64,000 nucleotides of DNA from Candidatus Eremiobacterota bacterium (GTDB lineage Bacteria > Vulcanimicrobiota > Vulcanimicrobiia > Vulcanimicrobiales > Vulcanimicrobiaceae). Location: NCBI GenBank assembly GCA_019240525.1, contig JAFAYE010000001.1, forward strand, positions 2,019,300 through 2,083,299, in the 5' to 3' direction. Shown here piece by piece: positions 52,215-61,988 of this stretch. The stretch's first letter is position 1. Each line of letters opens with the position of its first letter. The notes below the pieces were generated by a model. The model saw nothing but the letters and a program-made list of their open reading frames with translations. It did not search any database and was not told where the DNA came from. The translations under genes were made by a program, and so were the position numbers.

Positions 52215-53060
52215 GTGGAGCGAGTGGCTGCCATTTCGCGCGCGCGCGAGCTCTTCGCCGCGTCGCCGCGACCGCTTGGTTTTGTGCCGACCATGGGTGC
52301 GCTGCACGAAGGGCACCTCGCGCTCGTCGCACGAGCGCGCGAGCGGTGCGCGGCTCTCGGCGCGTCGGTCTTCGTCAATCCATTGCAGTTCGGGGCCGGG
52401 GAAGATCTCGCCCGATATCCGCGCGATATCGAGCGGGACTGCGCTCAACTCACGGCTGCCGGCGTCGACGTGCTGTTCGTGCCCGATGCCGGCGAAATGT
52501 ATCCGGCCGGCTTCGCCGCCGCGGTCGACGTGGGCCCACTCGGCGACGTCTTCGAGGGCGCGCTTCGGCCCGGGCACTTTCGCGGGGTGGCGACCGTGAT
52601 CGCCAAGCTGCTCAACATCGTGCGCCCCGACACCTTGATATTGGGGCAGAAGGACGCGCAGCAGATCGCGGTCGTGCGGCGCTTGGTCGCCGATCTCGAT
52701 TTCGGCGTCGCAATCGACATCGCACCGACGGTGCGCGAGCCCGACGGACTGGCGATGTCGAGCCGCAACGCCTATCTGGACCGAGCGCAGCGCGCACAAG
52801 CGCCCAGTCTCTATCGTGCTCTGGTGGCAACCCGCGACGCGCTCGAGCGCGGAGAGCCCAAACGCGAGGCGACCGCCGCCGGCAGAGCCGCGCTGAGCGC
52901 TTCGGCGCAGCTCGACTACCTCGACCTCGTCGATGCGCAGACATTCGATACGCTCGAGGAACCGCGCGAGTCCGCCATTATTGTCGCCGCCGCCCGATTT
53001 GGGGCGACGCGCCTGATCGATAACCTGTGGTTACGCCGTCCTTCGACAAGCTCAGGATGA
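52215..53060 (+). CDS. panC: Pantothenate synthetase
   Basis: Joins pantoate and beta-alanine with ATP to make pantothenate, the CoA precursor. 281 residues from a GTG, with GFVPTMGALHEGHLALV (HIGH-type), SVFVNPLQFGAGEDLARYPR, GHFRGVATVIAKLLN, LGQKDAQQ and the KMSKS-like GLAMSSRNAYL. The last residues RPSTSSG and the stop are encoded by the first copy of a 29-bp repeat, so the natural C-terminus has been overwritten. Start of the panC-coaBC-coaX run. Confidence 0.95.
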   Translation: MERVAAISRARELFAASPRPLGFVPTMGALHEGHLALVARARERCAALGASVFVNPLQFGAGEDLARYPRDIERDCAQLTAAGVDVLFVPDAGEMYPAGFAAAVDVGPLGDVFEGALRPGHFRGVATVIAKLLNIVRPDTLILGQKDAQQIAVVRRLVADLDFGVAIDIAPTVREPDGLAMSSRNAYLDRAQRAQAPSLYRALVATRDALERGEPKREATAAGRAALSASAQLDYLDLVDAQTFDTLEEPRESAIIVAAARFGATRLIDNLWLRRPSTSSG

Positions 53061-53123
53061 CACAATGTCCTTCGACAAGCTCAGGATGACACAATGTCCT
53101 TCGACAGGCTCAGGATGACACAA
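53037..53123 (+). repeat. Three tandem copies of a 29-bp repeat between panC and coaBC
   Basis: Units at 53037-53065, 53066-53094 and 53095-53123 share TGTCCTTCGACAAGCTCAGG followed by ATGACACAA. Copy 1 differs at its first base, copy 3 has AGGCTC for AAGCTC. Each unit ends AGGATGACACA before an ATG, so each is a Shine-Dalgarno plus start in a different frame; the third ATG is the coaBC start. The core is a dispersed repeat seen in many environmental bacterial genomes. Direct, head-to-tail, without spacers, so not CRISPR. Confidence 0.95.
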
Positions 53124-54310
53124 TGAAGGGGGCGCGGATTTTTTTGGGCGTGAGCGGCGGCATTGCCGCCTATAAGGCAGCCGCGTTGACGAGCACCTTG
53201 GTGCAGCGTGGGGCAATCGTTGACGTGGTCATGACCGCCGAGGCCGAGCACTTCGTGACGCCGTTGACCTTTGCGTCGCTGACGGCGCGGCCAGTCTATA
53301 CGTCGCTCTGGGACGCCCCCGAACGAATTCCCCACATTCGCCTCGTCCGCGAGGCACAAGTGGCGCTCGTGGTCCCCGCGACGGCGAATCTGATCGCGAA
53401 GCTCGCCGGCGGAATCGCCGACGATTTGCTGACAACGGCCTTGCTTGCCGCGCGCATTCCGCGAGTGCTTGCACCGGCAATGAACGAGGCGATGTACGAC
53501 GACGCAATCACGCAGCAGAACATCGCCGCGCTACGTTCGCGTGGTTACGAGTTTATCGATCCGGAGCGCGGGTTTTTGGCCGAGCGTGAAATCGGCGTCG
53601 GACGTTTGGCGACCGAAGAGCGAATTCTCGAACATCTCGAGCGCATGCTGGGGCGCGGGGAATCGCTGCGCGGTAAGCGCGTCGTGATTACCGGCGGCCC
53701 GACCCGCGAGCCGTTCGATCCCGTGCGATTTTTGAGCAACGCTTCGACCGGAGCGACGGCCATCGAACTGGCACGTGAGGCGGCGCTGCGCGGCGCCGCG
53801 GTCACATTGCTGCTCGGACCGACGCTGCTCGCACCGCCGAGCGGCGTTGATGTCGTACGCTTTAACACGGCGCAGCAACTATACGACCTGGCCTTGGCGC
53901 ATAGCACCGAAGCCGATCTGGTAATCGCCGCCGCCGCCGTGGGCGACTGGCGTCCCGCGCAACACTCGGAATCGAAGCTGCACAAAGGCGGCGAAACGAT
54001 GAGCGTGGATCTCGCACCCAATCCCGACGTGCTCGCCGCGATCGGCCAGCGCAAAGGATCGACTTTTCTCGTCGGTTTTGCCGCTGAAACGGACGATCAC
54101 GAGACGAGCGCGCGGCAAAAGCTGCGCGGAAAACATCTCGATGCCATCGCGGTGAATGACGTGCGCGACGAGCGCGGCTTCGGCACCGGCGAGAATTCGC
54201 TCGTCTTGCTCTGGGGCAACGACGGACGCCGCGATCTGGGTACGGCCGGTAAGGACGTTTTGGCCGCACGACTGCTCGATGCGCTGCAAGAGCTGATGCG
54301 ATGCTCTTAG
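53123..54310 (+). CDS. coaBC: Bifunctional phosphopantothenoylcysteine decarboxylase / phosphopantothenate-cysteine ligase
   Basis: 395-residue fusion catalysing two CoA steps. The CoaC half (1-180) is a flavoprotein with GVSGGIAAYKAAAL, a His in RIPHIRLV and PAMNEAMYDD. The CoaB half (187-395) has VITGGPTREPFDPVRFLSNAS, AAAVGDWRP and FLVGFAAETDD. The ATG is supplied by the third 29-bp repeat, which also gives AGGA 9 nt upstream. The end overlaps coaX by 10 nt. Confidence 0.95.
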   Translation: MKGARIFLGVSGGIAAYKAAALTSTLVQRGAIVDVVMTAEAEHFVTPLTFASLTARPVYTSLWDAPERIPHIRLVREAQVALVVPATANLIAKLAGGIADDLLTTALLAARIPRVLAPAMNEAMYDDAITQQNIAALRSRGYEFIDPERGFLAEREIGVGRLATEERILEHLERMLGRGESLRGKRVVITGGPTREPFDPVRFLSNASTGATAIELAREAALRGAAVTLLLGPTLLAPPSGVDVVRFNTAQQLYDLALAHSTEADLVIAAAAVGDWRPAQHSESKLHKGGETMSVDLAPNPDVLAAIGQRKGSTFLVGFAAETDDHETSARQKLRGKHLDAIAVNDVRDERGFGTGENSLVLLWGNDGRRDLGTAGKDVLAARLLDALQELMRCS

Positions 54311-55062
54311 TGATCGACGTCGGCAACACCGAAACCAAACTCGGCTGCTTCGACAACACTACGCTGCAGCAGACCTGGCGCGTCACCACCGAGCTGCGGC
54401 GCACACCCGACGAGTATGGCGTCTTCTTTACGCAGCTCTTTGCAACGAGCGATCTCAAGGCGAGCACGGTCGACGCGATTGCGATTGCCAGCGTCGTTCC
54501 GCAGCTCGACCTGGTGCTCGATACGGCTTGCCGGCGTTTTTTCGGGATCGCGCCGCGGTTTTTGCAGCCGCAGTCGCAGCAACTCATGAAGATCGCCACC
54601 GAGAATCCCGCCGAAGTCGGCGCCGATTTGGTCGCCGCGGCAATCGGCGGACGCGAGCGCTTCGGCGCTCCGTTGATCGTCGTGAGCTTCGGAACGGCAA
54701 CGGTCTTTATTGCCATCTCGAGTCAGGGTGAGTATCTCGGCGTTGCGATTGCGCCGGGAATCTTGGTCTCCATCGACGCGCTGATCGGGCGCACCGCCAA
54801 GCTTCCGCAGATCGCGTTGGAGGCGCCGGCACACGCGATTGGACGTAACACCAATGACGCCTTGCAGAGCGGCATCGTCTTTGGATTTGCCGGCCAGACC
54901 GAGGCGATCGTCGCGCGCATGCGCGGCGAAATGGGAGTTGAGGCGAAAGTCGTTGCCACCGGCGGCCTCGCCGACGTCGTCTTCAAGCAGACGCCCGTCA
55001 TCGGGGCGGTAGATCCGCACCTGAGTTTAGTGGGATTGGAGCTCTTTCATCGGAAATGCTAA
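54301..55062 (+). CDS. coaX: Type III pantothenate kinase
   Basis: 253-residue ASKHA-fold kinase that phosphorylates pantothenate and is not inhibited by CoA. It has LLVIDVGNTETKLG (phosphate loop), VGADLVAAAIGG, IVVSFGTATVF with the motif usually DxGTA (here Ser-Phe-Gly-Thr-Ala, so the Asp is replaced), and GVAIAPGILVSIDAL. The substituted Asp is unusual because it normally helps catalysis. Ends with TGGLADV. Coupled to coaBC. Confidence 0.9.
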   Translation: MLLVIDVGNTETKLGCFDNTTLQQTWRVTTELRRTPDEYGVFFTQLFATSDLKASTVDAIAIASVVPQLDLVLDTACRRFFGIAPRFLQPQSQQLMKIATENPAEVGADLVAAAIGGRERFGAPLIVVSFGTATVFIAISSQGEYLGVAIAPGILVSIDALIGRTAKLPQIALEAPAHAIGRNTNDALQSGIVFGFAGQTEAIVARMRGEMGVEAKVVATGGLADVVFKQTPVIGAVDPHLSLVGLELFHRKC

Positions 55063-55075
55063 ACTCCACACGACC

Positions 55076-56077
55076 ATGCGCCTCGCTCCGCTGAAGATCG
55101 GTCCGATCGAGATCTGGCCGCCACTCGTTCTGGCGCCCATGTCGGGCGTCACGAATCGAACCATGCGCGCCCTCTATCGTCCTTTTGGGCTCGGCCTCAC
55201 CGTGACCGAGTTCGTTTCGTCGAACGCGCTCAAATACGGCAGCGCGCGCACGCTGGAGATGATCGATCAGCACGGCCTCGAGAAGCCCGTATCGACGCAG
55301 TTGTGGGGTGACGATCCGGCAACCATGGCGCTCGCGGCCAAGGTCGTGCGCGAATGCGGGGCCGACATCGTCGACATCAACTTCGGCTGCCCGGCGCCGA
55401 AGGTGACCAAGACCAATGGCGGATCCGCGTGTCTGCGCGATCCGGATCGCTGCGAGGCAATCATGCGTGCCGTCGTCGGCGCGGTCGACTGCCCGGTGAC
55501 CATGAAGATGCGCTTGGGCTGGAGCGAGGACGCGCTGGTCTACGTCGACGTCGCGCGCCGCGCGCAGCGCAGCGGCGTTCGGGCCGTCACCCTACACGCG
55601 CGCACCGCCAAGCAGTTTTACAAAGGCGCGGCCGATTGGGAACACATCGCGCGTCTCAAGCGCGCGGTTGACATTCCCGTGATTGGCAACGGCGATCTCG
55701 ACGATCCGCACCTGGCGATGTCGCGCATGCGCGCAAGCGGTGTCGACGCGATCATGCTCGGGCGCGCGACGCTCGGTAATCCGTGGCTGATCGCGCAGAT
55801 TCGCGATCTGATGGAAGGTCGCAGCGCGCGCGCGCTTCCGGCACCGGACGATCGACTGCGCTTTGCGATCGTGCACTATCGCGCGATGGTCGACGAGCTT
55901 GGCGAAACGCGCGCCGTTCCCCAGATGCGTAAGCACGTCGCGCTCTATCTCAAAGGCATTCCGGGCGCGGCGATGCTACGCGAACGCATCATGCGCATCG
56001 AGCGCGCCGCCGACGCCATCGAGGTCATCGAACAGACGATCTCGCGCCTCGAAATGCTTGCGCGGGCCGCCGCATGA
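55076..56077 (+). CDS. dusB: tRNA-dihydrouridine synthase (DusB-like)
   Basis: FMN enzyme that reduces uridines in the tRNA D-loop. 333 residues: a TIM barrel with LAPMSGVTNRTMRAL, the DINFGCPAPKVTKTNGGSA motif containing the catalytic Cys region, TLHARTAKQFYKGAADWEH and VIGNGDLDD, plus a C-terminal helical domain (HYRAMVDELGETRAVPQMRKH). The start is 14 nt after coaX and the stop overlaps the aminotransferase ATG. DusB placement in a CoA operon is not functionally explained. Confidence 0.93.
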   Translation: MRLAPLKIGPIEIWPPLVLAPMSGVTNRTMRALYRPFGLGLTVTEFVSSNALKYGSARTLEMIDQHGLEKPVSTQLWGDDPATMALAAKVVRECGADIVDINFGCPAPKVTKTNGGSACLRDPDRCEAIMRAVVGAVDCPVTMKMRLGWSEDALVYVDVARRAQRSGVRAVTLHARTAKQFYKGAADWEHIARLKRAVDIPVIGNGDLDDPHLAMSRMRASGVDAIMLGRATLGNPWLIAQIRDLMEGRSARALPAPDDRLRFAIVHYRAMVDELGETRAVPQMRKHVALYLKGIPGAAMLRERIMRIERAADAIEVIEQTISRLEMLARAAA

Positions 56078-57357
56078 TCGACGAGCGTGCGGAGCTTTAC
56101 GGGGCGGCGACGGCGCAAGAACTCGCGGCCGAGGTGTACGAGAACTACAAAGAGTTCGTCAATCCGCCGCTCGCGCGGGTAATGAAGCTTTCGGGTTCGC
56201 CGGTCGAGGTGCGCGCCCGAGGATGCACGATTTGGGATCAGAACGGCAAGTCGTATCTCGATTTTGCCGGCGGGTATGGCGTCTTCACCTTGGGCTACTC
56301 GCATCCGCGCGTCGTCGAGGCGGTGCGCGCGCAAGTCGAGCGGATCGCCCTGTCGGGAAAGACGATGTTCAACGTGGTGCTCGGGCGCGCAGCGCGGCGG
56401 CTCGCCGAGCTGGCACCGGGAGACCTGCAGATCTCGTTCTGGTGCAACAGCGGGACCGAGGCGATCGAAGGTGCGATCAAGCTCGCGCGCGCCGCCACCG
56501 GCCGCGCCAAGATCGTCGGCACGGCCGACGCGTTTCACGGCAAGACTCTGGGCGCGCTCTCGGTCAGCGGGCGCGAAACGTTTCAAACGCCGTTTCGCCC
56601 GCTGCTCGCCGATTCGATCTCTGTGCCCTATGGCGTAACCGACGAGCTGGAAGATGCGCTGCGCGACGCGGCGGCCTTCGTCGTCGAACCGGTGCAGGGC
56701 GAGGGAGGCGTGCACGTTCCACCGGCAGGATATCTAGCTGAAGTGCGCGCCATTTGCGATCGAAGCGGAGCGCTCTTGATTGCCGATGAAATTCAAACCG
56801 GACTCGGACGCTGCGGCTATCGCTTTGCCTGCAATCGCGACGACGTCGTTCCCGACGTGATGACCTTGGCCAAAGGACTCTCCGGCGGCGTCGTTCCCGT
56901 CGGCGCGTTCGTTGCCCGCGCGGGGTGCTGGAGCCGCGCGTTCGGCAAAGCGCCGCTGCTCCACACGTCAACCTTCGGCGGCAGCGAGATCGCGTGTGCT
57001 GCGGCGCTGGCCTCAATGGACGTTCTCGAAGAAGAAGGCCTGGCCGAAAAAGCGCGCATACGCGGCGAGCAGCTGCTCGGCGGCGCGAGGGCAATCGCTG
57101 CCGAGTTTCCCGCGGTCGTTCGTGAAGCGCGCGGGCTTGGACTGTTGGTCGGCGTCGAACTGACGAGCGAAGGCTACGGTGGCTGGATCATTCCGGAAAT
57201 GCTCAAGCACGGCGTCACCGCCGCTTGGACCTTGAACGCCCAGCGGGTCATTCGGCTCGAGCCGCCGCTTATCGTGAGCGCCGGCGAAGTCGATCGCGCG
57301 CTGGAAGCTTTGCGCGCCGGCGTCGCGACTGCCTACGAAAAACTCGGAGCGCTCTGA
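56074..57357 (+). CDS. Class III (omega-amino/ornithine-type) aminotransferase
   Basis: 427-residue fold-type I PLP enzyme. YLDFAGGYGVFTLGYSHPRV, CNSGTEAIEGAIKLAR, AFHGKTLGALSVSGR, VEPVQGEGGVHVPPAGYL, IADEIQTGLGRCG and the PLP lysine in MTLAKGLSGG, then HTSTFGGSEIACAAAL, are all intact. Closest in pattern to putrescine, ornithine and 4-aminobutyrate aminotransferases. First of four coupled genes with an SRPBCC protein and two dehydrogenase-like proteins, a set of unknown purpose. The substrate could be an amine or a polyketide/fatty aldehyde-derived amine; not determinable here. Confidence 0.92.
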   Translation: MIDERAELYGAATAQELAAEVYENYKEFVNPPLARVMKLSGSPVEVRARGCTIWDQNGKSYLDFAGGYGVFTLGYSHPRVVEAVRAQVERIALSGKTMFNVVLGRAARRLAELAPGDLQISFWCNSGTEAIEGAIKLARAATGRAKIVGTADAFHGKTLGALSVSGRETFQTPFRPLLADSISVPYGVTDELEDALRDAAAFVVEPVQGEGGVHVPPAGYLAEVRAICDRSGALLIADEIQTGLGRCGYRFACNRDDVVPDVMTLAKGLSGGVVPVGAFVARAGCWSRAFGKAPLLHTSTFGGSEIACAAALASMDVLEEEGLAEKARIRGEQLLGGARAIAAEFPAVVREARGLGLLVGVELTSEGYGGWIIPEMLKHGVTAAWTLNAQRVIRLEPPLIVSAGEVDRALEALRAGVATAYEKLGAL

Positions 57358-57367
57358 TTCTCACGCG

Positions 57368-57814
57368 ATGCCGTATGTTGAGAGTACGATCGTGATCGAT
57401 GCCCCCGCCCGTCGCGTCTACGAGCTCGCGAAGGACCAAGAACGCTTTCCGCAGTTCATGCCCGACGTCGAAACGGTGACGATTCTGCAGCGTACTCCCG
57501 GCGGCGCAATTTCGCGCTGGAAGACCTTGGTCGAGGAAGCCCCGATCGAATGGACGGAAGACGATCGCTTCGATGACGAGGCACTGCGAATCGACTACAA
57601 GCTCATCGAGGGCGATCTCGATAAGTTCGAGGGCGCGTGGACGTTCGAGCACCGCGACGGCGTTACGCACGTGGTCCTTGGCGTCGACTACGATTTCGGC
57701 GTACCGACGCTCGCGGAGTTGATCGGTCCGACGCTGCAGAAAAAAGTTCGCGAGAACAGCGAGATGATGCTGGCCGCGCTTAAGCTGCAAGCCGAATCGC
57801 AGGACGCTCCGTGA
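57368..57814 (+). CDS. SRPBCC (START/COQ10-like) small-molecule-binding protein
   Basis: 148-residue helix-grip protein: YVESTIVIDAPARRVYELAK, RFPQFMPDVETVTIL, ISRWKTLVEEAPIEWTEDD and a long C-terminal helix (LIGPTLQKKVRENSEMMLAAL) that closes the hydrophobic cavity. The pattern is that of the polyketide cyclase/COQ10 group, which bind or shape hydrophobic ligands. It lies 10 nt after the aminotransferase and overlaps the next GTG by 4 nt. The ligand is unknown. Confidence 0.85.
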   Translation: MPYVESTIVIDAPARRVYELAKDQERFPQFMPDVETVTILQRTPGGAISRWKTLVEEAPIEWTEDDRFDDEALRIDYKLIEGDLDKFEGAWTFEHRDGVTHVVLGVDYDFGVPTLAELIGPTLQKKVRENSEMMLAALKLQAESQDAP

Positions 57815-58908
57815 ACAAGTTTTGCTTTGTCATCCATCCGCTCTCGTTCGACGACATCGCGCGCTACGAGCCGGGCGCGAAGGGCAAGGGTCAGGCGATC
57901 ATGCGCAAGATCATGGAGTGGATGCCGTCGTACGCCGCGGTGCACGTCACCGGAGTTCGCGCGCCGGACGGCCGCGAGACCGAAGGCTGGTTCGTCGCCG
58001 CGCCGTTGCTGCCGCAGCAGCTTCTCGAGTTTCCGCGTGAGGAAATCTACAGCCGCGTTTTGCGTGCGATCGAAATCGGCGCCGAGCTCGGTGCGCAAGT
58101 CGCGGGGCTCGGCGCCTACACCGCCGTCGTCGGCGACGCCGGCGTTACGATTAACGCGCGCTCGCCGATACCGGTCACCACCGGAAACTCGTTGACGATC
58201 GCCGCCGGCGTTCAAAGTCTTTTTCGCGGCGCGCGCGAGATGGCGATCGATCCGCGGGGTTCCACCGCGGTCGTTATCGGCGCAACGGGGTCGATCGGCA
58301 GCGCCTGCGCTCGCCTCATCGCTCCGCAAGTGCAGCGACTCATCTTGGTCGCGCGCAACGAGACGCGTCTGCGAAAGTTCCATCAGGAGAACGCCGCCGA
58401 GTTGCCGTGCGAGACTGAATATACGACCGACATTCCCAGCGCCGTGCGCAGGGCACAGTTGATTCTCACCGCCACGACCTCGACGCAGGACATCATCGAC
58501 CCCGGCGATCTGCGTACGGGCGCCGTTATCTGCGAGCTCTCGCTGCCGCACGACGTTAGCCGGCGGGTCGCGTCGCAACGACCCGACGTGTTGGTGATCG
58601 AGGGCGGAAATATGCTGGTGCCGGGAAACCCGCGCTTCGAACGCGTCCGCGAGCGCGGCACCGACTTCGATTTGAACCTGCCGCCGCGCACCGCGCTCGC
58701 ATGCATGAGCGAGACGATGATCCTTGCGCTCGAAGGGCGCCTCGAACCCTACACGCTCGGGCGCGGCATCGAGCTGCGCAAAGTGATCGAGATCGAAGCG
58801 ATGGCCGAGAGATGCGGCTTTACTCTGGCCGACATGCGCGCCTTCGACGCGGCGATCACCCCCGAACGAATCGCCGCTACGCGCGAAGCCGCGCTTGCAC
58901 GCTCGTGA
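57811..58908 (+). CDS. Long-chain acyl-ACP reductase-like / predicted amino-acid dehydrogenase (COG5322-like)
   Basis: 365 residues. An N-terminal domain (KFCFVIHPLSFDDIARYEPG, VTGVRAPDGRETEGWFVAAP, LGAYTAVVGDAGVTINAR, VTTGNSLTIAAG) precedes a Rossmann domain with VVIGATGSIGSACARLIAPQ. The order resembles cyanobacterial acyl-ACP reductase, which makes fatty aldehydes; the LGA-T-VVG and TTGN-T motifs align by eye. Whether the catalytic Cys of that enzyme is retained was not established. GTG start overlapping the SRPBCC stop; the end overlaps the next GTG. Likely NAD(P)H-dependent reduction of an acyl or keto group. Confidence 0.78.
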   Translation: MNKFCFVIHPLSFDDIARYEPGAKGKGQAIMRKIMEWMPSYAAVHVTGVRAPDGRETEGWFVAAPLLPQQLLEFPREEIYSRVLRAIEIGAELGAQVAGLGAYTAVVGDAGVTINARSPIPVTTGNSLTIAAGVQSLFRGAREMAIDPRGSTAVVIGATGSIGSACARLIAPQVQRLILVARNETRLRKFHQENAAELPCETEYTTDIPSAVRRAQLILTATTSTQDIIDPGDLRTGAVICELSLPHDVSRRVASQRPDVLVIEGGNMLVPGNPRFERVRERGTDFDLNLPPRTALACMSETMILALEGRLEPYTLGRGIELRKVIEIEAMAERCGFTLADMRAFDAAITPERIAATREAALARS

Positions 58909-59813
58909 AGCGCGTCGTTTCGGTGTCGTTGGGATCGAGCACGCGGGATCACCGCGCGCAGGTGACGTTGATGGGCGAAGAGTTCGACATTTCGCGCGTC
59001 GGCACCGACGGCAAACTCGACCTCGCAATCGCGATGGTGCGCGATCTCGACGGAAAGGCCGACGCAATCGGCTTAGGCGGCATCGACGTCTATCTCTATG
59101 CGGGTCGGCATCGGTATGCGCTGCGCGACGGATTACGACTGCTCGAGGCTGCAAAGGTGACTCCCGTCGTCGACGGCAGCGGCTTGAAGAACACGCTCGA
59201 GCGTAAAGCCGTGCGTTTCATGCAGGACGATCTGGGGATCGATCTGCGCGGGAAGCGCGTGCTCATGGTGAGCGCGCTCGACCGCTTCGGTATGGCCCAA
59301 GCCTTCGTCGACGCCGGCGCCGACGTGCTCTTCGGCGACTTCATCTTCGCGCTCGATAAAGACATGCCGGTTCGCGATCTTCACGAGTTCGAAACGATGG
59401 CCGAAAAGTATCTGCCCGACGCGTGCAAGCTGCCGTTTCAGTTTTTCTACCCCACCGGAAAGAAGCAAGAGAAGCCGCCCGAGCCCAAATATCCGCAATA
59501 CTACGAGCAAGCAGAAATCATCGCCGGCGACTTTCACTTCATGCGTCAGTTCATGCCCGCGCGCCTCGATGGGAAGATCGTGCTGACGAATACGGTCACC
59601 CACGCCAACGTGGAAGAGTTGGGCGCGCGCGGCGTCAAGCTGCTCGTCACCACCACGCCGGAGATTGCGGGACGATCGTTTGGGACGAACGTGCTCGAGG
59701 CCGCGCTCCTCGCGTTGCTGGGTAAGGCCTGGAGCGACGTGATACCGGCCGATTACGAGCGCCTGCTCCACGATTTGAGTTTACGGCCGCGGGTGGTCGA
59801 GCTTAACGCTTGA
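58905..59813 (+). CDS. 'Quinate 5-dehydrogenase'-annotated family protein of unknown function
   Basis: 302 residues. RVVSVSLGSSTRDHRAQVTL at the N-terminus, then GLGGIDVYLYAGRHRYALRD, TPVVDGSGLKNTLERKAVRF, KRVLMVSALDRFGMAQAFVD, DIIFAL-like GDFIFALDKDMP, AEIIAGDFHFMRQFMP and LLVTTTPEIAGRSFGTNVLE. From memory this matches a family labelled quinate 5-dehydrogenase in thermophilic Firmicutes, where it neighbours the same acyl-reductase-like gene. The label is not experimentally grounded as far as I know; no shikimate-pathway genes are near. Last gene of the operon. Confidence 0.75.
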   Translation: MKRVVSVSLGSSTRDHRAQVTLMGEEFDISRVGTDGKLDLAIAMVRDLDGKADAIGLGGIDVYLYAGRHRYALRDGLRLLEAAKVTPVVDGSGLKNTLERKAVRFMQDDLGIDLRGKRVLMVSALDRFGMAQAFVDAGADVLFGDFIFALDKDMPVRDLHEFETMAEKYLPDACKLPFQFFYPTGKKQEKPPEPKYPQYYEQAEIIAGDFHFMRQFMPARLDGKIVLTNTVTHANVEELGARGVKLLVTTTPEIAGRSFGTNVLEAALLALLGKAWSDVIPADYERLLHDLSLRPRVVELNA

Positions 59814-59960: not shown

Positions 59961-60470
59961 TTGAACGACAAAGAAATCGTGCTGACCGCCGAGGGTCTGA
60001 CGAAGTTGGAACAGGAGCTCGACGAGCTCAAGACCGTCCATCGGCGCGAGGTCAACGATCGCATTCGCCAAGCCAAAGAGTATGGCGATTTGAGCGAAAA
60101 TGCGGAGTACGAAGACGCCAAACAGGAACAGGCCTTCATCGAAGGGCGCATTCTCAAGCTCGAAGCGATGATTCGCAATGCTCGCATCATTGACGAATCG
60201 GAGTACGCCGCCGACGAAGTGCATCTCGGCGCGATCGTTAAGGTGAAAGATCTCAAAAGTAACGACACCTACGAGTTCTCGATCGTCGGCTCGGCCGAAG
60301 CCGATCCCCCGCGTCAGCGCATCTCCAACGAATCGCCGCTCGGGAGCGCGCTCATGGGGCACAAGAAGGGCACGACCGTCGACGTTGCCACGCCGCGCGG
60401 ACTGGCAAAGTACAAGATAGAATCGATCAAGAGCAGCTCACCGAAGAAGGCTGCGAAAAAGGCCTCGTAA
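59961..60470 (+). CDS. greA: Transcription elongation factor GreA
   Basis: 169 residues. An N-terminal coiled coil (LTAEGLTKLEQELDELKTV, AKEYGDLSENAEYEDAKQEQ with the acidic tip that enters the RNA polymerase secondary channel) and a C-terminal FKBP-like domain (VGSAEADPPRQRISNESPLG, GTTVDVATPRG). Rescues backtracked polymerase. TTG start with GAGGG 8 nt upstream. A Lys/Ser-rich tail extends past the usual end. lysS follows 21 nt later. Confidence 0.96.
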   Translation: MNDKEIVLTAEGLTKLEQELDELKTVHRREVNDRIRQAKEYGDLSENAEYEDAKQEQAFIEGRILKLEAMIRNARIIDESEYAADEVHLGAIVKVKDLKSNDTYEFSIVGSAEADPPRQRISNESPLGSALMGHKKGTTVDVATPRGLAKYKIESIKSSSPKKAAKKAS

Positions 60471-60491
60471 GGCCGCCTTCGAGGAAAACGA

Positions 60492-61988
60492 TTGGACGAA
60501 CTCGGCAAGACCGAAGCGTCGCTCGTAGCGGCCAGACGTGAGAATCTGGCCGCTTTGCGTTCGCGGGGGAGCGATCCGTTCGCCGCCCGCCGCTTCGAAG
60601 TGCAGGCGACGGCCGCCGAACTGCTCGAGCGGTACGGTTTCCTGGTGCCTGGCCAAGACGCGAGCGCCGAAGGCTGGAGCCTCGCGGGGCGTCTTCTCTC
60701 GAAACGAACGATGGGCAAGACGAGTTTTGCCGATCTCGGCGACCGCTCGGGGAAGCTTCAGATCTACATCCGCAAAGAAGAAGTCGGCGAGTCGGCCTTT
60801 CGCGATTGGGCCGATCTCGATCGGGGCGATCTCATCGGCGTTCGCGGCTGGATGTTTCGTTCGAAGATGGGCGAGCTTACCTTGCACGTTACCGCGTTCT
60901 CGCCGCTGGGTAAGGCGCTCATGCCGTTGCCCGACAAGTGGCACGGCTTGCAAGACGTCGAGAAGCGGTACCGCCAGCGCTACGTCGATCTGATCGTCAA
61001 TCCCGACGTGCGCGATACGATGATCATGCGCAGCCGGCTGATCGCGGAAATGCGCCGCTTTATCGACTCGCACGGGTTTTACGAAGTCGAGACCCCGACA
61101 CTTCTGCACGTCGCCGGCGGCGCCGCAGCGCGGCCGTTCGTCACGCAATGCAACGCGCTCGATCACATCATGCAGCTGCGGATCGCCACCGAGCTCAACC
61201 TCAAGCGCCTCATCGTGGGCGGACTCGAGCGCGTCTACGAGATCGGCCGAATTTTTCGCAACGAAGGCATCGACACGACGCACAATCCCGAGTTCACGAT
61301 GTTGGAGCTCTACGCGGCCTACTGGGATGTCGGCGATATGATGGCATTCAATGAAGAGCTGATCGCGCACCTCGTTTCCATTGCGACCGACGGCGGCACC
61401 GAGCTTGCTTACGACGACGCCAGCATCTCGTTCGCGCGACCGTTCGCGCGCGTTGAATACCTGGACGCGATGGCGAGCTACAGCGACGGCAAGTATACCC
61501 GCGAGCGTTTGCTCGACGCCACGCAAGCGCAAGCGATTCTTCGCGAACTCGACATACCGGAGTCGCCCTCGCACGGTCACGCGCTCGACAAGATCTTCGA
61601 GCGCGTCGTCGAGCCGCACTTGAACGCGCCAACGTTTGTCACCGGCTATCCGGTGGTGATCTCGCCGCTATCGAAACGGCGCGCAGGCGACGAGGAGATC
61701 GTCGACCGATACGAACTGTTTTGCGGGCGCATGGAGATCTCCAACGCCTTTACCGAGCTCAACGATCCCGACGATCAGCGTGCGCGCTTCGCCGCCCAAG
61801 TCACCGAACGGGCCGCCGGCAACGACGAAATTCCCGAGCCCGATTGGGATTACGTCCGGGCGCTCGAGTACGGTATGCCGCCGACGGCCGGCATCGGCAT
61901 CGGCATCGACCGTCTGATTATGTTGTTGACCGGTCAACGATCGATCCGCGACGTCTTGCTCTTTCCGCTGCAGCGCCAGCACGGATGA
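60492..61988 (+). CDS. lysS: Lysyl-tRNA synthetase, class II
   Basis: 498 residues. An OB-fold anticodon-binding domain (GRLLSKRTMGKTSFADLGD, FRSKMGELTLHVTAFSPLGK) is followed by the class II core: motif 1 RRFIDSHGFYEVETPTL, motif 2 FRNEGIDTTHNPEFTMLELY and motif 3 GIGIGIDRLIMLLTG. Attaches lysine to tRNA. TTG start with GAGG 7 nt upstream. Stop overlaps the next ATG. Confidence 0.96.
   Translation: MDELGKTEASLVAARRENLAALRSRGSDPFAARRFEVQATAAELLERYGFLVPGQDASAEGWSLAGRLLSKRTMGKTSFADLGDRSGKLQIYIRKEEVGESAFRDWADLDRGDLIGVRGWMFRSKMGELTLHVTAFSPLGKALMPLPDKWHGLQDVEKRYRQRYVDLIVNPDVRDTMIMRSRLIAEMRRFIDSHGFYEVETPTLLHVAGGAAARPFVTQCNALDHIMQLRIATELNLKRLIVGGLERVYEIGRIFRNEGIDTTHNPEFTMLELYAAYWDVGDMMAFNEELIAHLVSIATDGGTELAYDDASISFARPFARVEYLDAMASYSDGKYTRERLLDATQAQAILRELDIPESPSHGHALDKIFERVVEPHLNAPTFVTGYPVVISPLSKRRAGDEEIVDRYELFCGRMEISNAFTELNDPDDQRARFAAQVTERAAGNDEIPEPDWDYVRALEYGMPPTAGIGIGIDRLIMLLTGQRSIRDVLLFPLQRQHG

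Follow-up and report, generated by a model that had tools for sequence, protein, structure and literature searches.

A four-gene cassette of the Eremiobacterota may supply long-chain alkylamines for N-glyceroyl-alkylamine lipids

What four closely packed genes of a Candidatus Eremiobacterota bacterium make together is the question addressed here. They lie on the forward strand of a window of 64,000 nucleotides (NCBI GenBank assembly GCA_019240525.1, contig JAFAYE010000001.1, positions 2,019,300 to 2,083,299; coordinates below are those of the window unless a locus or genome is named) in a host genome of 2.8 Mb. In order, they encode a class III pyridoxal 5'-phosphate (PLP) aminotransferase (TA; 56074-57357, ATG start, 427 residues), an SRPBCC/START-like hydrophobic-ligand protein (57368-57814, ATG start, 148 residues), a predicted acyl-thioester reductase (TR; 57811-58908, GTG start, 365 residues) and the core protein labelled 'quinate 5-dehydrogenase' (Q5; 58905-59813, GTG start, 302 residues). 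TR, which would act on acyl-acyl carrier protein (acyl-ACP) or acyl-CoA, resembles cyanobacterial acyl-ACP reductase (AAR) and the N-terminal domain of PigE. All four open reading frames (ORFs) are intact and adjacent in one direction, with a 10-nt gap between the TA and SRPBCC genes and 4-nt GTGA overlaps at the SRPBCC/TR and TR/Q5 junctions, just as a first-pass annotation of this DNA had described. We propose, with a probability of roughly 0.6, that the cassette is the core of a long-chain alkylamine pathway, which takes an acyl thioester through an aldehyde to an alkylamine and feeds N-glyceroyl-alkylamine lipids.

The enzyme families carry much of this proposal. TA belongs to Pfam Aminotran_3 (E=2e-95); its top NCBIfam model is PigE, through the C-terminal domain (414 bits), and its relatives in the PDB are putrescine aminotransferase and PigE itself (4ppm). 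The predicted PLP-binding lysine, Lys267 (codon 56872-56874, forward strand), is invariant in 14 cassette-type TAs. For TR, the top NCBIfam model is again PigE, here the N-terminal domain (197 bits), followed by the AcACP_reductase model of the cyanobacterial enzyme (79 bits), and the PDB search returned 4ppm at E=1e-36 and cyanobacterial AAR (6jzq) at E=1.1e-14. A GxxGxxG NAD(P)-binding motif (Gly157, Gly160, Gly163) is encoded at 58279-58299 on the forward strand; among 26 TRs from three phyla, Gly157 and Gly163 are invariant and Gly160 nearly so. Cys298 (58702-58704, forward strand), the predicted catalytic residue, is kept in at least 90% of the same 26 proteins and aligns with the 'CxAE' of AAR and PigE, that is, with the catalytic Cys294 of Synechococcus elongatus AAR and Cys296 of PigE. 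The catalytic roles of these cysteines are documented, and the conversion of an acyl thioester to an aldehyde and on to an amine has been established experimentally for both PigE and TamH (PMC9594044, PMC8341465).

The predicted chemistry of the cassette is a variant of PigE/TamH chemistry, with PigE as the best model for both TA and TR. The earlier suggestion that an acyl-derived carbonyl is turned into a lipid-like amine by reductive amination gains support from these family matches and from the TamH/PigE analogy. In tambjamine YP1 biosynthesis of Pseudoalteromonas tunicata, PtTamA/PtTamH bring together a class III transaminase and an AAR-like reductase with the cysteine and the GxxGxxG motif, the transaminase part comes before the reductase part, and acyl-ACP is converted to aldehyde and amine (PMC9594044); the same conversion is predicted for the cassette. 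PtTamH, however, is a fusion encoded in a pigment cluster that brings its own supply of acyl-ACP, whereas the cassette has separate proteins, adds the SRPBCC protein and Q5, and is core rather than accessory. PigE, of the prodigiosin pathway, shares the catalytic residues but is a TR-TA fusion in a pigment cluster. In the TR tree, the cassette-type TRs, including TA-TR fusions, are set off from PigE on a fully supported branch of their own; in the TA tree, the TAs of Bacillota that neighbour an SRPBCC gene fall on the cassette side, with several forks unsupported. Neither TA (414 bits) nor TR (197 bits) reaches the PigE equivalog cut-off of 850 bits. Since the proteins score below this cut-off, are unfused, sit in a coaX-dusB/greA-lysS context and have TRs on a separate branch, we conclude that the cassette works like PigE without being a member of that system. 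A plasmid search with TR gave 17 matches, the majority of them bearing a class III aminotransferase annotation, and the best PigE-type ones, from prodigiosin-like clusters, were used as reference sequences.

The likeness to cyanobacterial AAR extends to the fold and catalytic cysteine of TR, and it has a limit. A hidden Markov model comparison of TR with the cyanobacterial enzyme had been suggested: the match exists, at 79 bits (77.9 in the genome search), but it is far below the cut-off of 449.7 for the long-chain acyl-ACP reductase model TIGR04058. Alkane synthesis of the cyanobacterial type was considered and rejected, given this score and the presence of TA and the SRPBCC protein as partners instead.

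From enzyme families, catalytic residues, gene order and co-occurrence, all read from sequence, we infer the substrates, the product and the roles of the SRPBCC protein and Q5. In the first step, Cys298 of TR would take over the fatty acyl chain of acyl-ACP (or acyl-CoA), and NAD(P)H would then serve to reduce it to a fatty aldehyde. From this aldehyde TA, with PLP on Lys267 and an amino acid donor, likely glutamate, would form a primary alkylamine. The SRPBCC protein may bind or pass on a hydrophobic intermediate or the amine, and Q5, an AAR fold incapable of Cys/NAD(P) chemistry, would work with TR or in a step that uses the amine. Its most likely destination is the amide-linked chain of (phospho)glycolipids of the N-glyceroyl-alkylamine type, as known from Deinococcus, Thermus and Moorella.

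The SRPBCC protein has the START/SRPBCC fold, and its hydrophobic-ligand role is a prediction. It matches Pfam Polyketide_cyc (PF03364; E=2.6e-20), and its nearest solved relative, by sequence as well as by fold, is TTHA0849 of Thermus thermophilus HB8 (2d4r), with a full-length, gapless match (E=6.2e-23) and a fold Z of 22.1.

How widely is the set kept? In the window's phylum, Q5 was found in 111 of 118 genomes and TR in 114. The order TA-SRPBCC-TR-Q5-greA-lysS persists in distant, deepest-branching families of the phylum, at protein identities of 41-60%, and in one of these families the SRPBCC gene went undetected. This retention, together with co-occurrence in rearranged form in other phyla, indicates that the cassette is more than a chance arrangement. 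As the pathway is core and lies outside any biosynthetic cluster, its product should be core too.

Outside the Eremiobacterota, 149 genomes were surveyed in the phylum of G121, the genome that holds the Desulfallas locus. Q5 occurs in 117 and TR in 105 of them (103 with both, 14 with Q5 only, two with TR only, 30 with neither), and TR directly follows Q5 in 79. TR is likewise associated with high-scoring TAs or TA-TR fusions (91 with both, 14 with TR only, four with TA only, 40 with neither); when genomes with a fusion only are set aside, the counts become 71, 14, 4 and 40, with p=6e-17 in a test that ignores phylogeny. In the actinomycetotal class of Ca. Oleimmundimicrobium, 35 of 36 genomes have Q5, 34 have TR and 33 have a TA scoring at least 417 bits. 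Twelve of the 36 show the order Q5-TA-gap-TR, the gap measuring 485-589 nt, and at the actinomycete locus L089 it is filled by an SRPBCC gene. The neighbourhood search therefore bears out the first-pass annotation's idea that the set may be conserved across phyla: the genes co-occur in Bacillota and Actinomycetota. Its reading of the four genes as a fixed stoichiometric unit, on the other hand, has to be given up. In Bacillota, Q5-TR and TA-SRPBCC form two separate pairs, or else Q5 is accompanied by a TA-TR fusion. Seven Bacillota loci have an SRPBCC gene behind TA, once with an intervening gene, away from Q5-TR, and the TA-TR fusions (866-911 residues) have the domain order of TamH, one of them directly behind Q5 (L217).

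For the proposed product, a long-chain primary amine derived from fatty acids is what N-glyceroyl-alkylamine phosphoglycolipids need. Moorella, one of the genera concerned, belongs to the same GTDB phylum as the Desulfotomaculia. The major phospholipid of Thermus and Meiothermus has N-glyceroyl alkylamine as its headgroup amide, and the corresponding lipid of D. radiodurans is a related one (PMC3398001, PMC3035268). A lipid of this kind is present in Moorella thermoacetica according to PMC13274423, and the title of Bale 2025, cited there, states that such lipids dominate the lipidomes of several Bacillota. The title of Anderson and Huang 1992, cited in PMC9789136, names fatty acids as precursors of the D. 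radiodurans alkylamines. In one study all 33 Deinococcus genomes were found to have a family labelled quinate 5-dehydrogenase, which Thermus has as well (PMC9425974). The Deinococcota also hold relatives of the SRPBCC protein and of the TR family: among 14 control genomes the acyl-ACP reductase family matched only four, and both Deinococcota in the set, Thermus composti and Deinobacterium chartae, were among them. Since hemA matched all 14 and the acyl-ACP reductase family four, mere cross-matching to glutamyl-tRNA reductase (GluTR) is unlikely. The distribution of the set probably overlaps the lineages reported to contain N-glyceroyl-alkylamine lipids, namely Deinococcota and Moorella.

Several observations weigh against the alkylamine-lipid proposal. 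The link to the Deinococcota is indirect: the search of the control genomes recorded presence only, and that of M. jannaschii also matched the acyl-ACP reductase family. The identity of the Deinococcus 'quinate 5-dehydrogenase' with Q5 depends on the shared label, and Moorella was not identified among the surveyed genomes. The co-occurrence p-values take no account of phylogeny, the TA score cut was chosen after the scores had been seen, and the 14 genomes with Q5 only, in the phylum of G121, had no TR match. A gene for glyceroyl-amide formation or phosphatidyl transfer was not found in the cassette. Finally, in the papers searched alkylamine lipids are without a report from the Eremiobacterota, in which the pathway is a prediction from genes.

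The same TR and TA chemistry could instead yield a fatty or polyketide amine destined for secretion, signalling or secondary metabolism. PigE and TamH, the closest characterized relatives, do serve secondary metabolism, and amino acid permeases of the APC family or a glutamate symporter adjoin the genes in some genomes. We nevertheless regard such a product as unlikely, given near-universal presence throughout one phylum and one class of actinomycetes, the housekeeping operon context, TR clades that look vertical and separate from PigE, and the lack of pyrrole, polyketide synthase or non-ribosomal peptide synthetase genes beside the cassette. One may also ask whether the aldehyde from TR goes to another lipid (an ether lipid, alcohol, diol or hydrocarbon), with TA a mere neighbour or acting on a different substrate. 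Homology of TR to cyanobacterial AAR, the separation of TA from TR in many Bacillota and the 14 TR-positive genomes lacking a matching TA would fit this picture, which becomes quite improbable in view of the TA-TR fusions, the TR/TA co-occurrence, the inclusion of TA in the cassette in two phyla, and the best match of both proteins to one bifunctional enzyme.

Running the reactions backwards, an imported amine or polyamine might be deaminated by TA and the resulting aldehyde oxidized by TR to an acyl thioester; TA does resemble putrescine aminotransferase, and APC permeases that could bring in the amine lie next to Q5 in part of the Eremiobacterota and Desulfotomaculia. The known activity of AAR and PigE reductases is reductive, though, the permeases lie outside the cassette in most genomes, and the companions are lipid-type SRPBCC or SCP2 proteins rather than catabolic dehydrogenases, which together leave catabolism very improbable. 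The pair of GluTR and glutamate-1-semialdehyde (GSA) aminomutase in haem synthesis offers a further parallel, as there too a class III PLP enzyme receives the aldehyde made by an AAR-superfamily reductase, in that case from a tRNA substrate and with separate genes. A tRNA-dependent pathway of that type is suggested by the weak GluTR similarity of TR and by the flanking dusB and lysS. It is hardly credible here: the host encodes a separate GluTR (388 bits), the AAR/PigE similarity of TR is far stronger, and dusB-greA-lysS remain in this order even in genomes with the cassette genes elsewhere, so that the order looks ancestral.

What, then, is Q5? The first-pass annotation had taken each protein to be intact by its motifs, which holds for TA, the SRPBCC protein and TR but not for Q5, in which there is no dehydrogenase motif at all. 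Q5 has no match in Pfam or NCBIfam, the shikimate dehydrogenase families included; a PDB sequence search gave nothing credible, and none was found in the plasmid collection. An alignment of 51 sequences has 55 invariant columns, none of them Cys; the expected catalytic position holds no Cys, and a conserved S/C-A-x-D-R-F-G-M occupies the Rossmann loop in place of the NAD(P) glycine motif. The AlphaFold model (mean confidence score, pLDDT, of 90) has AAR as its best PDB match (Z 14.7, 247 aligned residues, 4.2 Å) and the AAR-like carmabin domain as the next (Z 14.4), all others being at Z 10.8 or below. As judged from this predicted fold, which is AAR-like over most of its length, Q5 probably belongs to the AAR superfamily; only the fold comparison links it to TR, for a profile-profile comparison, with shallow profiles, gave an hhalign probability of 2.3%. 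Lacking both an invariant Cys and the Rossmann glycine motif, it qualifies neither as a quinate dehydrogenase nor as a functional AAR, and the label 'quinate 5-dehydrogenase' is a misnomer. A bolder reading, which we offer tentatively and hold to be rather doubtful, is that Q5 is a new type of AAR-fold enzyme that carries out the next step towards the alkylamine lipids or is an obligate partner of TR, with the cassette as the genetic basis of these lipids. Such a step could be formation of the glyceroyl-alkylamine amide, or passing of the amine to phosphatidylglyceroyl transfer.

Variation around Q5 was also recorded. Some Bacillota genomes have a second, strongly diverged Q5-like gene scoring 215-220 bits versus about 478 (G198 C1:1871875-1872750, G270 C53:134685-135560, G236 C6:1556-2431). 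In L120 (8940-9857) and L105, a 300-residue protein with no Pfam match stands beside Q5 in the place expected of TR; the L105 copy has a weak partial match to TR, and the protein is possibly a decayed or repurposed TR. An SCP2-like protein lies beside Q5 in the Desulfotomaculia. APC-family amino acid permeases come immediately after Q5 in some Eremiobacterota, and in Desulfotomaculia they follow Q5 and the SCP2-like protein (L035 578-3878, L038 2939-4228, L080 928-3495; L086 9305-10660), which is an independent repeat of the neighbourhood; that amino acid permeases adjoin Q5 in some genomes is a weak clue to function, as is a glutamate-symporter family protein near TA-SRPBCC in one genome.

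Further neighbours appear in other lineages. In Bacillota and Actinomycetota, a helix-turn-helix-like family of about 180 residues (c9), without a match in Pfam, is encoded ahead of TR, Q5 or the TA-TR fusion (L089 407-1027, L152 5737-6267, L160 4326-4892, L217 4911-5444) and is perhaps a regulator of the pathway. A GT4 glycosyltransferase directly follows TA-SRPBCC in two Bacillota (L208 5292-6497, L214 7627-8769), a weak hint that would fit a glycosylated alkylamine lipid. One Bacillota locus (L216 5081-7615) encodes a TR-TA fusion in the domain order of PigE, which groups with PigE in both trees; its genome also carries cassette-type genes. A metagenome-assembled genome titled Chloroflexi (L093) falls in the window's phylum, so that record titles are unreliable for taxonomy here.

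In the window itself, the upstream context is a panC-coaBC-coaX-dusB run of ORFs on the same strand (52215-56077), with an equivalog match for DusB and an order kept in relatives. The stop of dusB overlaps the start of TA by 4 nt (ATGA, 56074-56077), a junction missing from the first-pass annotation, and the cassette is therefore the tail of this run. Downstream, greA-lysS (59961-61988, forward strand) starts 147 nt after the cassette, in an order kept in Eremiobacterota, Bacillota and Actinomycetota. No RNA families or tRNAs were found within the window.

As chemical markers of Deinococcus and Thermus, N-glyceroyl-alkylamine lipids go back to 1985; their discovery in Bacillota is recent. In the openly searchable literature we found no assignment of genes to their alkylamine step; as far as these papers show, both the link of the cassette to such lipids and the function proposed for Q5 are new. 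If the alkylamine-lipid proposal is true, the cassette would provide a genetic marker for these lipids, predict them in whole uncultured phyla such as the Eremiobacterota, account for a very conserved protein misnamed quinate dehydrogenase, and offer stand-alone fatty-amine enzymes for biocatalysis. Should Q5 prove to be the enzyme tentatively suggested above, the set would be the missing genetic basis of these lipids in Eremiobacterota, Bacillota, Actinomycetota and Deinococcota.

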